A stretch of 64,000 bases of DNA from Peptacetobacter sp. (GTDB taxonomy: Bacteria > Bacillota > Clostridia > Peptostreptococcales > Peptostreptococcaceae), in contig NZ_JARIBH010000040.1 of NCBI RefSeq assembly GCF_029264495.1, positions 1-64,000 of the forward strand. The letters run 5' to 3'. Positions 8,795 through 59,455 of the stretch are shown one piece after another. How positions within the stretch are numbered: position 1 is the stretch's first letter; every line of letters starts with the position of its first letter. The position numbers and the translations under genes were made by a program. The notes beneath the pieces were generated by a model. The model saw only the letters and a list, made by a program, of their open reading frames with translations, was not told where the DNA came from and did no database searches.

Positions 8795-9027
8795 TAAAAA
8801 AATCCTCAGCCCCTAAACAAAATGTTTAGGGACGAGGATATTATATACTCGCGGTACCACCCTAATTAGCCCTAAAAGGACTCTCTTAGATAGTCTTTAT
8901 ACCAACTACGGACGATAGATTCTATCTGACAAGTTCAGAAATTCATTATATTGATTCTCAGCTACCATCAACTCTCTGAAATAAATCCAATCTTACTACT
9001 TCAGTCTATCAAACATATAAAATTAAT
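8795..9027 (-). promoter_or_regulatory. T-box leader controlling leuS
   Basis: Leftward leader between the leuS promoter and gene. The T-box antiterminator core GGGTGGTACCGCG is present in full (complement of 8850-8862). It is followed by a strong intrinsic terminator (8803-8838 stem, T-run 8794-8802). The upstream part (8940-9020) contains the stem I region with the AGAGAG and GGTAGCTGAGAATC elements typical of Clostridia. Uncharged tRNA-Leu should pair with the leader and favour antitermination. The specifier is probably the CTT in GAACTTGTC near 8933-8942, read on the leftward strand, but I could not fold stem I well enough to be certain. Confidence 0.93.
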
Positions 9028-46918: not shown

Positions 46919-46931
46919 TACTATTGTACTT

Positions 46932-47010
46932 GCCGCTGTGGCGGAATGGCAGACGCACATGACTCAAAATCATGCGGGAAACCGTACGGGTTCAAGTCCC
47001 GTCAGCGGTA
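46932..47010 (+). tRNA. trnL: tRNA-Leu (anticodon CAA)
   Basis: Cloverleaf parts: acceptor GCCGCTG / CAGCGGT (G1-U72 wobble), D-arm GCGGAATGGCAGACGC, anticodon stem CATGA / TCATG with loop CTCAAAA giving CAA (reads UUG), an 11-nt variable arm CGGGAAACCGT, T-arm ACGGG TTCAAGT CCCGT, discriminator A. The variable arm is short for a class II tRNA but has the stem expected for leucine. CCA is not encoded, so maturation relies on RNase Z (present at 13.8 kb) and CCA-adding enzyme. Confidence 0.97.
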
Positions 47011-47041
47011 TTATAAAATTATATATCTTTTAAACACATTA

Positions 47042-47070
47042 AAAATACTGGTTATAATAACCAGTATTTT
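47042..47070 (+). terminator. Terminator of the tRNA-Leu transcript
   Basis: AAAATACTGGTTA / TAACCAGTATTTT with a T-rich tail, 32 bp after the tRNA. Confidence 0.85.
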
Positions 47071-47164
47071 TCTTTTTGTAATCTAAATTTATTTTTATCT
47101 TTGCATATATCTAAATTGATAATTAAAAATTATTAATTATTATTATTTTTTTTGAATTTATACA

Positions 47165-47250
47165 ATAAAAAAATCCCTTATAAAAAGGGATTTTTTTATT
47201 CGACGGCAGAAAATTTGAGGATGTGAGGGAGAACTGCCGCCGAATCAAAT
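47165..47250 (-). ncRNA. Candidate small RNA with C-rich anti-Shine-Dalgarno loop
   Basis: Leftward unit: TATAAT -10 (complement of 47257-47262, weak -35 TTAGCT), then at once a 12-bp hairpin (arms 47234-47245 and 47198-47209) and a strong intrinsic terminator (47167-47197, seven T). In the leftward RNA the arms pair fully with one G-U; on the other strand that pair is A-C, so the direction is clear. The 24-nt loop reads TTCTCCCTCACATCCTC on its 5' side: CUCCCUC and AUCCUC are complementary to Shine-Dalgarno sequences, as in known C-rich Gram-positive regulatory RNAs. The family is not one I can name. Hairpin is GC-rich against its background. Confidence 0.55.
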
Positions 47251-47406
47251 AGGGTAATTATATTATGTTCTTAAGAAAAAGCTAATCTTTCTATGCTTTT
47301 ATAATACACATTCAATATGAATTTATTATCAATGTAATGTAAATATAATGTGAATTTTTTTAAAAATATTATGTTTTCAAACTTAATTTATCGATTTTCA
47401 GACGAA

Positions 47407-49425
47407 TTATCTATCTCTTTTTATTATTTTTTGTAATAATCCTTTTATTCCTGTTGCTTCTTCTTTTATTTGTTTTTCTTCTGTTCCATTATTACTTTCG
47501 TCATCTGTGTTAACTTTCATTATAAATTTGACATCACCATTCATATCTTCACCGATTCCAGCATAATTATTATATTCTCTAGATAAATCAACTAGTACAT
47601 CTTTAGTATCTATTATTTTTTCTAAATCTTTAATTTTGGCTGTTTTTGAAGATACTTCAGAATTAACTTTATCATTTGCTTGTTTTACACCATCATAAAG
47701 TTTTTTAGATCCACTTTGTAGTTCTTTTGTTCCAGATAATATCTTCTTAGAATTTGATGATAATAAATCTGATCCCTTTTTAAGTTCTGATCCTCCAGCT
47801 ACAAGTTGATTTGCACCACTTTGTAGTTGAGTTGTTCCATTATAAAGCTTTTGACTACCTTCATAAAGTTTATCTGTTGATCCTTCAAGTTTTCCAGAAT
47901 TTTCTCTTAATACATTACCAGCTTCAATAAGTTGTCCAAATTTTGATTTATATTGACTTGAACCTTCGCTAAGTTGATTTAATCCTGATGATAATTGTTT
48001 TGCCGCTGTTGATGCTTCTGCTAAACCACTTTTAGCTGAAGAAACCGCACTTGCTGCATTTCCTACTGCTTCTTCTTGTTTTGATGATATCGCTATTGAA
48101 GTTTGTGCTGCTGATACTATTTTTTGTGCGGCTGCTTTTGATTCTTCACTTGCATTTTCATCATTTATTATAGTTTGAGCTGCTGATACTATTCCTGAAG
48201 CTAATTCTTTATTTTTAGATATTGAACCACTTAGTTCAGAAATTGATCCACCTGATGATGCTCCTGATAGTGCTCCTGACAATTTTGATGCTCCTGCTGC
48301 TGCATTTTTTATTCCATTATCAATATCAGAATATGCACTATATACATTTTCTGTATTTTCTATAAACATTGAAACACCTGTTGTAAATTTATCTTGTCCT
48401 GCATTTAACCGTTCTATACCATTCATTAATTTTTGTGCACCATCACTAAGAACAGGTATATTTCTTCCCATAAGGCCTACTCCATCAGTTAGAGTTCCTA
48501 TACCACTACTTAATTTTTGAGTTCCTGCATCAAATTTTTCATAATTATTTGCTAAAGTTGAAGTACCTTTATATAATTGTTCTGTTCCATTTAATAGTTC
48601 TTTTCCTGATTTTTTTAATTTATCTATCATATTTGATATATCATTCATATTTGTATTTGAATCAATATCATCTAATGCTGATATATCAGGAGTAGCTGCT
48701 ATCATAATTTCTGGTGCTTCAAAATTATAGGCATCTGCTTCTATAGTTATAGTAGAACCTATTTTATCAAATAGTTTATTAAAATCTCCTCCCATATTTA
48801 AAGAAGACTCAAGACCTGGTGAAGATATTGCTGTTATTGCTGATGTTTTACCATCATCTACTACTTTTCCTGTATTAGATTTTATATTTTTAAAGTTTTT
48901 TCTAGGCATTAAAATTTCTGTAGCTGTTACAAATGGTACGTATACTGTTCTATTTTCTCCATTTATCCTTACATTTCTAGATTCATTGTTCTTTAATCTT
49001 ATTGTTACTTTTAAGTTTCCTGATTGTCCTTTTATTTCATCTGCTGTTACACTTCTTCCATTTAATTCATATTCTATATCTGTTGTTATTGGTAATTGCT
49101 TATCTGTTTTGCCTTGGTAGTATAAATCTTCTTTTGTAGTATCCCAAGTTACTTTATCACCATCTATTGTAGGTTTTTCATCACCTTTTACATTTTTTAT
49201 ATCTTTAAGAATACTTTCATCATTTATTTTATCTAAAGACCCATCTCCACTTAACCATTCTGATACTATATTCTTTTCTACTGTTCCATCTTTTTTTAAT
49301 ATTGTATATACTGTTTCATCTTTCTTTATATAACTACTTTCCGCAAATACAGGAGATGCTGATGCTGTTAATATTGCTAATGTACAAACTGATGCTATTG
49401 ATTTATCTATTGTTTTCTTTTTCAT
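47407..49425 (-). CDS. Secreted helical-coil protein (YhgE/Pip-like) paired with MMPL transporter
   Basis: 672 residues. Signal peptide 1-28 (SASPVFAESS). A beta-rich N-terminal part (about 30-245) with YELNGRSVTADEIKGQSGNLKV, then a long helical region (about 255-605) with recurring G-x3-L-x2-G-x3-L spacing (LLNGTEQLYKGTSTL, LYNGTTQLQSGANQLVAGGS), as in the extracytoplasmic tube of YhgE/Pip-type proteins. Unlike those, no membrane helices follow: the end is acidic then basic (IKGLLQKIIKRDR). It lies 27 bp downstream of the MMPL permease gene, same strand, so the two likely form one envelope transport complex. The substrate is unknown. Confidence 0.75.
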   Translation of the reverse strand: MKKKTIDKSIASVCTLAILTASASPVFAESSYIKKDETVYTILKKDGTVEKNIVSEWLSGDGSLDKINDESILKDIKNVKGDEKPTIDGDKVTWDTTKEDLYYQGKTDKQLPITTDIEYELNGRSVTADEIKGQSGNLKVTIRLKNNESRNVRINGENRTVYVPFVTATEILMPRKNFKNIKSNTGKVVDDGKTSAITAISSPGLESSLNMGGDFNKLFDKIGSTITIEADAYNFEAPEIMIAATPDISALDDIDSNTNMNDISNMIDKLKKSGKELLNGTEQLYKGTSTLANNYEKFDAGTQKLSSGIGTLTDGVGLMGRNIPVLSDGAQKLMNGIERLNAGQDKFTTGVSMFIENTENVYSAYSDIDNGIKNAAAGASKLSGALSGASSGGSISELSGSISKNKELASGIVSAAQTIINDENASEESKAAAQKIVSAAQTSIAISSKQEEAVGNAASAVSSAKSGLAEASTAAKQLSSGLNQLSEGSSQYKSKFGQLIEAGNVLRENSGKLEGSTDKLYEGSQKLYNGTTQLQSGANQLVAGGSELKKGSDLLSSNSKKILSGTKELQSGSKKLYDGVKQANDKVNSEVSSKTAKIKDLEKIIDTKDVLVDLSREYNNYAGIGEDMNGDVKFIMKVNTDDESNNGTEEKQIKEEATGIKGLLQKIIKRDR

Positions 49426-49452
49426 TTTTATCTCCTCCTTAGTTAATGTTTC

Positions 49453-51519
49453 TTAATTTTTAGGTATAAAATCTTTTGATGTTTTTTCTATCAATTTTTC
49501 ACTCAACAATAATAATCCTGGTAATATAAATAATATTACAAACATACTTATTATTGCCCCTCTTGCCATAAGAGAACATAAAGAACTTATCATTTCTAAT
49601 TTAGATATTATTCCAACACCTATTGTTGAACTAAAGAATGAAAATCCACTTGTTACAATAGATCTTCCACATTTTTGTATAGATATTCTCATTGCTTCAT
49701 ATTTATCTAAACCATTTGCCAGTTCTTCTTTAAATCTAGATGTTAAAAGTATTGCATAGTCTACTGTTGCTCCTAATTGAATAGTTCCTAGTACTATAGA
49801 TGCTATAAATGGAAGTACTGTTCCTGTATAATATGGTATACCTAAATTTATAAATATAGCTCCTTCTATAACTAATACTAGTAATACTGGTATAGATGCT
49901 GATTTAAATATGAAGGCTATTATAGCAAATATCGCTATTATTGATACTGCACTTACCTTTTTAAAGTCTGTATCTGCTATTCTTATTAAATCTTCTGTTA
50001 AAGGTGCTTCTCCACCAATAAGCCCATCTTTATCGTATTTTTTAACTATTTTATTTAATTCTCTTATTTGAACACCACATTCTTTTGAAGCTGCTCTATA
50101 TTTTGAATTTATCATAATCTGCTCATATCCACCTGATTTAACTTCAGATAAAAGGCTATCAGGTATTATACTTTGTACAAAACCTGGTCCAACTACTTTC
50201 TCTAATGCTACAACTGAGTTGACTCCATCTACTTTTTCAATTTCACTTACCATTTGATCAACTTTATATGATTCGATACTATCTTTTACAAATATCATAT
50301 CTGTACTATTCATATCAAAGTCTTTTTTCATTTTATTTGTGGCTACTATAGATGGAAAAGTATCTGGTAATGTTTCATCTAAATTGTAGTAAACCTTTGC
50401 ATTATTGTTACCATATATTGCTGGTATTAATATTATCAAAAATACTATTGTTAATTTCTTATAATTTTTCATTACAAAGTTAGAAGTTTTTTCAAATCCT
50501 GTAAGTATTATTCTATGTTTATGTCCATGTATTACCTTATCGAATACTAATATTAAAGATGGTAATACCGTTACTGTAGTTATAACTCCAAGAACAACAC
50601 CTTTTGCCATTACTATTCCTATATCTTTACCTATAGCTAAATCCATAGCACATAACGCTATAAATCCTGCAACAGTAGTAAGTGAACTACCAGATATAGA
50701 AGTAAATGTATTTGTTATAGCATTGGTCATAGCTTCTATTCGATTATCCGTATTTAATAATTCTTCATCGTACCTATGTAGTAAAAATATAGAATAATCC
50801 ATTGTAACCCCTAATTGAAGAATTGCACACAATGCTTTTGTTATATATGATATTTCTCCAAATATTATATTAGTACCAAAATTATATATTATTGCTATTG
50901 CTATATTTACAAGAAATATAATAGGAATTGCTGTATATTCCATAGTTAAAAGTAGCACTATCATAGTTAAAATTCCCGCTACTATTACGTAAAAAGGCAT
51001 CTCTTTATCAGATAAATCTTTTGTATCTTTTATTATTCCTGACATTCCACTTAAAAATGCCTGTCTTCCTGCGATACCTCTTATTTTTTCTACTGCATTC
51101 ATTGTCAATTCATCGGCTGTACCTTCTTTTAGTTTTACAACCATCATTGTTGCTTTTCCAGAGTAAAGCATATCTCTCATATCTTTAGGTATCATTTCAT
51201 TAGGGAAAGACAAATCTATAAAATTATCTTTCCAAATAACTTCTTGTACACCTTTTACTTTTTCTACTTTCTCTTTAATTTTTGCTACGTCTTTATCTGG
51301 CATATTTTCTATTTCCAACATAGCAAGTGATCCGCAATTAAAATCTTCTTTCATGATTTTTTCTGCCTTCATAGTAGATACATCTTCAGGCAAATAGCTA
51401 AGTATATCATAATTTATATCTGTATTGATATAACCTATAACTGAAGGAATTAAAAGTAAAAATGATATTAAAAGAATTATTTTACTATGTTTTGCTATTT
51501 GCTCAGCTATTTTTTTCAT
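49453..51519 (-). CDS. MMPL/RND family export permease
   Basis: 688 residues, 12 membrane segments in two repeated halves: helix 1 at about 13-31, an extracytoplasmic domain, a block of five helices (about 175-330), a second single helix near 355, a second extracytoplasmic domain and the last block (about 535-680). The halves share the motifs LQLGVTMDYSIFLLHRYDEE and IQLGATVDYAILLTSRFKEE with the intramembrane Asp for proton coupling. Family members export lipids, siderophores or drugs. Start follows AAGGAG. Operon partner is the coil protein; transcribed from 51567-51595. Confidence 0.92.
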   Translation of the reverse strand: MKKIAEQIAKHSKIILLISFLLLIPSVIGYINTDINYDILSYLPEDVSTMKAEKIMKEDFNCGSLAMLEIENMPDKDVAKIKEKVEKVKGVQEVIWKDNFIDLSFPNEMIPKDMRDMLYSGKATMMVVKLKEGTADELTMNAVEKIRGIAGRQAFLSGMSGIIKDTKDLSDKEMPFYVIVAGILTMIVLLLTMEYTAIPIIFLVNIAIAIIYNFGTNIIFGEISYITKALCAILQLGVTMDYSIFLLHRYDEELLNTDNRIEAMTNAITNTFTSISGSSLTTVAGFIALCAMDLAIGKDIGIVMAKGVVLGVITTVTVLPSLILVFDKVIHGHKHRIILTGFEKTSNFVMKNYKKLTIVFLIILIPAIYGNNNAKVYYNLDETLPDTFPSIVATNKMKKDFDMNSTDMIFVKDSIESYKVDQMVSEIEKVDGVNSVVALEKVVGPGFVQSIIPDSLLSEVKSGGYEQIMINSKYRAASKECGVQIRELNKIVKKYDKDGLIGGEAPLTEDLIRIADTDFKKVSAVSIIAIFAIIAFIFKSASIPVLLVLVIEGAIFINLGIPYYTGTVLPFIASIVLGTIQLGATVDYAILLTSRFKEELANGLDKYEAMRISIQKCGRSIVTSGFSFFSSTIGVGIISKLEMISSLCSLMARGAIISMFVILFILPGLLLLSEKLIEKTSKDFIPKN

Positions 51520-59236: not shown

Positions 59237-59271
59237 CAATAAAAAGCGCTGACAAGCAGCGCTTTTTATTG
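59237..59271 (-). terminator. Terminator of the 6S-like RNA
   Basis: Perfect 15-bp inverted repeat CAATAAAAAGCGCTG / CAGCGCTTTTTATTG with a 5-nt loop. Confidence 0.88.
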
Positions 59272-59455
59272 TCCCGAAACACCGTCGGTATTGTAAATTC
59301 ATACCCGAGAGTCTCTCAGGTGGGTGATTTGTTGGCTATTTTCTAATATCCTCGATAAATCAAGGCTCGTCATACTTATAATCAAACATAATCTCCCGAA
59401 TTTAATTTGTCGGTTGAATTTAAAAGTAACCATCTCGAATGCTTCAGGATTCTTA
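59237..59455 (-). ncRNA. 6S-like RNA (candidate ssrS)
   Basis: About 220 nt, leftward. A TATAAT lies at the complement of 59461-59466. The 5' arm UCCUGAAGCAUU (complement of 59438-59449) pairs over 12 bp, with four G-U, with 3' GGUGUUUCGGGA (complement of 59272-59283). The G-U pairs would be A-C on the other strand, so direction is firm. Between the arms is an irregular rod. On its 3' side AAUCACCCACCU precedes a small hairpin, as in 6S central bubbles. A 15-bp terminator follows (59237-59271). Size, long closing stem and architecture fit 6S RNA, which sequesters sigma-A holoenzyme. Not verified by covariance search; another structured RNA is possible. Confidence 0.6.

Follow-up and report, generated by a model that had tools for sequence, protein, structure and literature searches.

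The DNA stretch of 64,000 nucleotides analysed here (the window) probably carries a minus-strand small RNA (sRNA) gene which would be activated by an OmpR-type response regulator and whose loop is likely to block translation at Shine-Dalgarno regions. Computation established how the gene is built, that it is conserved with covariation, that it is linked to a two-component system, and that the half-sites are shared. That the regulator activates the gene, how the loop pairs, and that Hfq is needed are what we infer. According to the proposed mechanism the OmpR-type regulator of a conserved two-component system would bind TTCA repeats spaced by 11 bp near the -10 element and activate an RNA of ~128 nt, in which a leader free of structure precedes a single strong hairpin and the terminator; CUCCCUCACAUCCUC would be displayed by this hairpin as an open loop, which most likely pairs with the Shine-Dalgarno regions of several mRNAs, probably with the help of Hfq, so that their translation would be blocked.

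Organization of the sRNA Gene

The entire unit extends on the minus strand from ~47354 down to 47167. It starts with four half-sites 11 bp apart (TTCACATTATA TTTACATTACA TTGATAATAAA TTCATATTGAA; 47311..47354), which were located by alignment and pattern search and where an OmpR-type response regulator is proposed to bind. The conserved -10 hexamer TATTAT (47301..47306) follows 8 nt past the last TTCATAT, a geometry equal to that of the promoter given for RCd6 of Clostridioides difficile in PMC3649979. Transcription is predicted to start near 47294 and to yield an sRNA of ~128 nt (47167..47294), as judged from the conserved promoter and terminator and from a covariance model match at 47197-47296. 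The 5' leader (47246..47294) contains AGAAAGA-TTAGCTT and CATAATATAATTACCC, both conserved in the alignment. Across relatives the same order is kept, namely, half-sites ending with TTCATAT, 8 nt, TATTAT, the leader AGAAAGA-TAGCTT with CATAATATAATACCC, and the hairpin. The half-site box was aligned in 37 relatives and recovered by pattern in all ten genomes tested, where matches with up to two mismatches occurred at sRNA promoters only.

In the preliminary description a TATAAT at 47257-47262 was regarded as the promoter of an RNA of ~85 nt, and neither point held. In the alignment of relatives the conservation starts ~60 nt ahead of this TATAAT, which is itself part of the predicted RNA; moreover, the stretch diverges in Terrisporobacter and Intestinibacter, where the upstream box is kept. 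Because the conserved promoter (OmpR-type box and TATTAT) is situated ~40 nt further upstream, the predicted RNA measures ~128 nt.

The structural part of the same description proved to be correct. The minus-strand stem comprises 12 bp, in which the 5' arm ATTCGGCGGCAG (47234..47245) pairs with the 3' arm CUGCCGUCGAAU (47198..47209) according to sequence and folding, and the pairing is perfect only in the leftward RNA, since one G-U pair there corresponds to A-C on the plus strand. The 24-nt loop (47210-47233) holds the announced CUCCCUC and AUCCUC, and the C-rich motif CUCCCUCACAUCCUC within it (47217..47231, minus strand) is the proposed pairing site, selected by its near-invariance across relatives. 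The G+C content is 49% in the hairpin and 13–19% in the flanks. The minus-strand RNA folds with -33.1 kcal/mol, compared with -12.0 ± 2.6 for shuffled sequences (z -8.1; none of 200 shuffles equalled it), while for the isolated 51-nt hairpin z is -5.0 as minus-strand RNA and -2.0 as plus-strand RNA. The intrinsic terminator AAAAAAAUCCCUUUUUAUAAGGGAUUUUUUU (47167..47197, minus strand), a stem with U-runs, is backed by folding and by terminator-like stems in relatives; a simple terminator scan did not flag it, probably because the U-run belongs to the stem.

The terminator stem is symmetric and could also serve plus-strand transcripts, and together with the 680-bp intergenic setting this is what speaks for a reading in which the hairpin is a mere bidirectional terminator or 3'-end structure between a leftward 672-aa gene, polA, and a tRNA gene, with no sRNA at all. 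Such a reading is highly improbable, as the unit possesses its own conserved promoter and a conserved nonstructural leader and loop, occurs at many unrelated loci, and has probable members in C. difficile for which transcripts were reported. The claim of a leftward small RNA gene was strongly supported by those transcripts, by compensatory changes in the hairpin, and by the near-invariant loop.

As for the surroundings, the window's copy lies upstream of polA and beside tRNA-Leu. The tRNA-Leu (CAA) and a subsequent bidirectional terminator-like hairpin (47041-47071) occupy 46931-47071 of the plus strand. Directly upstream of the sRNA, at 47407-51519 of the minus strand, a secreted 672-aa protein with X-X-X-Leu-X-X-Gly heptad repeats and a 688-aa MMPL-type transporter are encoded, and the order of these two genes with the sRNA is kept in another genome of the same genus (G002, L129). 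Two further minus-strand RNA features of the window are 6S RNA at 59267-59453 (Rfam RF00013, 62 bits) and a T-box leader at 8825-9018 (Rfam RF00230, 100 bits). In one relative (G012) a second sRNA copy is also found by eye upstream of polA, following a gene that resembles the one ahead of the tandem Clostridioides copies; since this setting is shared, an ancestral second copy may be the origin of the one in the window.

Conservation and Distribution of the RNA Family

DNA searches of relatives recovered the region in congeners (86–92% identity) and throughout the family. The covariation test was performed with 25 diverse members in an alignment blind to structure. All 8 consensus pairs showed changes on both sides, 87% of the cells were paired (77% in shuffles; 26–71% when slid), double-change cells numbered 31 versus 12.5 in shuffles, and the covariation score was 0.488 versus 0.320. 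The same hairpin with an open loop appeared in the folds of every member, and while the stem is variable, CCCUCACAUCCUC is almost fixed, which makes the loop the most conserved part of the RNA. The covariance search of relatives suggested earlier thus found a conserved hairpin, with a covarying stem and a family model that matches relatives.

This covariance model (R1) was built from those 25 sequences; the window matched it with 67.8 bits (E 9.8e-8), its own sequence being one of the 25 in the model. Within the family 34 of 59 genomes matched, and none of 39 genomes from other families of the order did; in an order-wide draw all matching genomes (25 of 198) fell within the family. The sRNA family is confined to Peptostreptococcaceae, with named records from Clostridioides difficile, Romboutsia, Terrisporobacter, Intestinibacter, Faecalimicrobium, and Peptacetobacter. 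Clostridioides has 6-7 matches per genome, a count in which contig ends may have split one or two matches, and two of the copies stand in tandem ~550 bp apart.

Two variants of the loop were observed. In the same-genus genome G002 (L008) the loop holds a tandem repeat in which CACATCCTC is duplicated, as if the pairing unit were doubled. A Terrisporobacter/Intestinibacter subtype (L019, L023-L026, L034) has a shorter loop UUCCCUCACACUCUUUUA and another leader UUUACUUAAAUACCC and is located away from two-component genes.

In the Rfam scan no family reached the gathering threshold, and the weak sub-threshold matches (MCS4, Yfr10, and others) were dismissed as chance. Exact-sequence literature searches returned unrelated matches only, and none of the papers searched, which did not include key ones of 2021, was found to describe these RNAs as a family, so that priority is not certain.

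Linkage to an OmpR-Type Two-Component System

The sRNA promoter begins immediately after the stop codon that ends a histidine kinase gene (~420 aa) in 22 genomes, which represent 11 genera. The kinase gene in turn comes after the gene for a 222-aa response regulator of the OmpR type; the linked system is of the OmpR/HisKA type. A kinase orthologue, defined by 450 bits or more, was detected in 31 of the 34 genomes with the sRNA. The three remaining genomes belong to Intestinibacter, and these retain the regulator (63–69% identity versus at most 47% for paralogues). Conversely, five genomes possess the kinase with no sRNA detected. Since the genomes are all related, co-occurrence alone is weak evidence, and the gene order together with the operator is the stronger one.

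The promoters of the response regulator gene carry the arrangement TTCAY-N6-TTCAY-10 nt-(-10) in 14 of 24 cases. Among 408 other upstream regions four fit a looser pattern; two of these are the sRNA promoter itself, which leaves 2 of 408 away from sRNA loci. The DNA-binding domain of the regulator is nearly invariant, including that of the window's genome. In that genome the two-component system is encoded on another contig, and in Peptacetobacter the sRNA is not adjacent to the system and the regulator promoter lacks the box. The control of the sRNA by this response regulator is strongly suggested by such comparisons of operators and gene order.

Tandem 11-bp half-sites are typical for many regulators of the OmpR/PhoB family. 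On this ground another OmpR-type regulator (e.g., PhoB/PhoP-like) could act on the box, with the linkage reflecting merely ancestral gene order, and the position of the sRNA away from the system in Peptacetobacter, Terrisporobacter, and Intestinibacter, as well as the five genomes with the kinase and no detected sRNA, would agree with it. We regard this as improbable, because the promoters of the linked regulator itself bear half-sites at equal spacing to the -10 element, this regulator is retained even where no kinase orthologue is detected, and its DNA-binding domain is near-identical in the window's genus. Two particular candidates were rejected: the phosphate (PhoB) regulon, as strong boxes were present at sRNAs only, and RgaR/SpoZ, as RgaR uses VirR-like sites, which are of another type. 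The pst-phoU genes were not identified in the window's genome because the PhoU matches sit in open frames of 542-564 aa.

It may also be proposed, quite tentatively, that the direct output of the two-component system, autoregulation aside, consists essentially of sRNAs only, which would have expanded to the 6-7 matches per Clostridioides genome, in which case the signal would be turned into translational control alone.

Two observations were made around the linked loci. In one Clostridioides genome (G019, L120:5393-7924) an ABC transporter cassette separates the histidine kinase from an sRNA copy with the diverged loop AACCUAAUAUCCUG, while in other Clostridioides genomes the kinase and the sRNA are adjacent. 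A gene for a lysine-rich coiled-coil-like protein of ~70-100 aa ("MKxMKDDLKEGxKK...DMK") recurs by the two-component/sRNA locus (L014, L015, L018, L054, L120, L124, L130, L175).

Probable Members of the Family in Clostridioides difficile

In 2013 the transcripts RCd6 and SQ1498 were detected by Northern blot, and in the available part of this study (PMC3649979) no regulator or target is given for them and they are treated as separate sRNAs, not termed related. RCd6 (CD630_n00170) is located in strain 630 between CD0469 and blaR (CD0470), has the promoter TTAAAT-17-TATATA and a Northern band of ~100 nt, and is 12-fold more abundant in exponential phase; SQ1498 (~150 nt, 10-fold more abundant in exponential phase) is flanked by CD2112 and CD2113, the latter encoding a histidine kinase (PMC3649979). 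Start sites are also given in PMC7438776, and RCd6 is listed as Hfq-associated and as reduced in mouse infection (PMC11651100).

Some of the Clostridioides copies adjoin penicillin-sensing genes (Pfam Penicillinase_R, Transpeptidase), and one of these has exactly the promoter hexamers and spacing of RCd6, with a predicted RNA of ~100 nt. By position, promoter, and size RCd6 and SQ1498 are very probably members of the family: the former agrees in the blaR neighbour, in the hexamers with 17-nt spacing, and in the ~100-nt size, and the latter in its place beside the histidine kinase CD2113, which fits the Clostridioides copy after the kinase.

Predicted Pairing of the Loop

The loop motif pairs with 176 translation start regions at a mean of -9.1 kcal/mol versus -4.2 inside genes. 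This preference nevertheless failed to single out the real loop, as shuffled loops of equal composition gave -9.0 and 51 of 100 were as good at start regions; any loop of that composition pairs equally, so that pairing specificity for start regions is not supported by this comparison. Exact 12-nt complements of the loop were found at sRNA loci only, and complements with one mismatch numbered ~71 versus ~72 for a reversed control pattern in a simple tally. One conspicuous candidate target is a Cache-domain gene of Clostridioides, where GAGGATGTGAG right before the start codon can form an 11-bp duplex with the loop at -19.1 kcal/mol, better than all 500 shuffles; being a single candidate picked after a search, this gene is a lead only. 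All seven genomes examined for it, among them that of the window, have a gene for Hfq.

The same sRNA under the same control might have a protein or another RNA as the main partner of its loop, as in Hfq titration or sRNA sponging. This would accord with a complementarity to start regions that composition accounts for, with the lack of enrichment of long complementary sites, and with the overexpression of RCd6 and SQ1498, which according to PMC3649979 left growth and the levels of predicted target mRNAs unaltered. We consider it unlikely, given that the loop is conserved across genera beyond its composition, that C-rich UCCC-type loops of low-GC Gram-positives target Shine-Dalgarno regions (PMC4132741), and that the 11-nt match at the Cache-domain gene start is conserved in Clostridioides. 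An anti-Shine-Dalgarno action of the loop is plausible.

Comparison with csRNAs and LhrC

The family resembles the csRNAs of Streptococcus and LhrC of Listeria in its presumable workings, with no detectable homology. The csRNAs, controlled by CiaRH (PMC3091779), are likewise several related small RNAs per genome with direct repeats spaced by 11 bp ~10 nt ahead of the -10 element and with an OmpR-type activator, as is proposed for the present family. Their unpaired pyrimidine-rich region is complementary to Shine-Dalgarno sequences; the C-rich loop of the window's RNA is predicted to be unpaired as well, but its pairing with start regions is what its composition would give. The CiaR repeat is TTTAAG-N5-TTTAAG, about ten bases ahead of the -10 element (PMC3091779), whereas the family described here uses TTCAY-N6; the repeat NTTAAG-N5-TTTAAG is absent from the window promoter. 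The csRNAs contain an unpaired stretch between two stem-loops, in contrast to one hairpin with a C-rich loop here, and the recognition helix of the linked regulator is RIVDAHIKNIRKKI, that of CiaR being VVEVYVSKVRKKL. LhrC1-5 of Listeria monocytogenes (LisRK; PMC4132741), for which Hfq binding was reported (PMC4132741), are also multicopy, controlled by a two-component system and equipped with C-rich UCCC-type loop sites, but LhrC has three CU-rich sites. The Rfam scan gave no match to csRNA, and none to LhrC at gathering or up to E 5, with no sequence homology to the latter. Because operator and recognition helix differ from those of CiaR and no Rfam match exists, the family is not a member of either group.

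Scattered C. difficile sRNAs (probably RCd6, SQ1498, and more copies) are hereby united as a single family for which a regulator is predicted, and the predictions on this regulator with its operator, on where the RNA starts and ends, and on its seed are directly testable. Redundancy among the copies implies that single-copy deletions in C. difficile may give no effect. Thus, the design known from csRNAs and LhrC, in which a two-component system would drive several C-rich sRNAs, appears to exist also in Peptostreptococcaceae, where it has apparently arisen independently.
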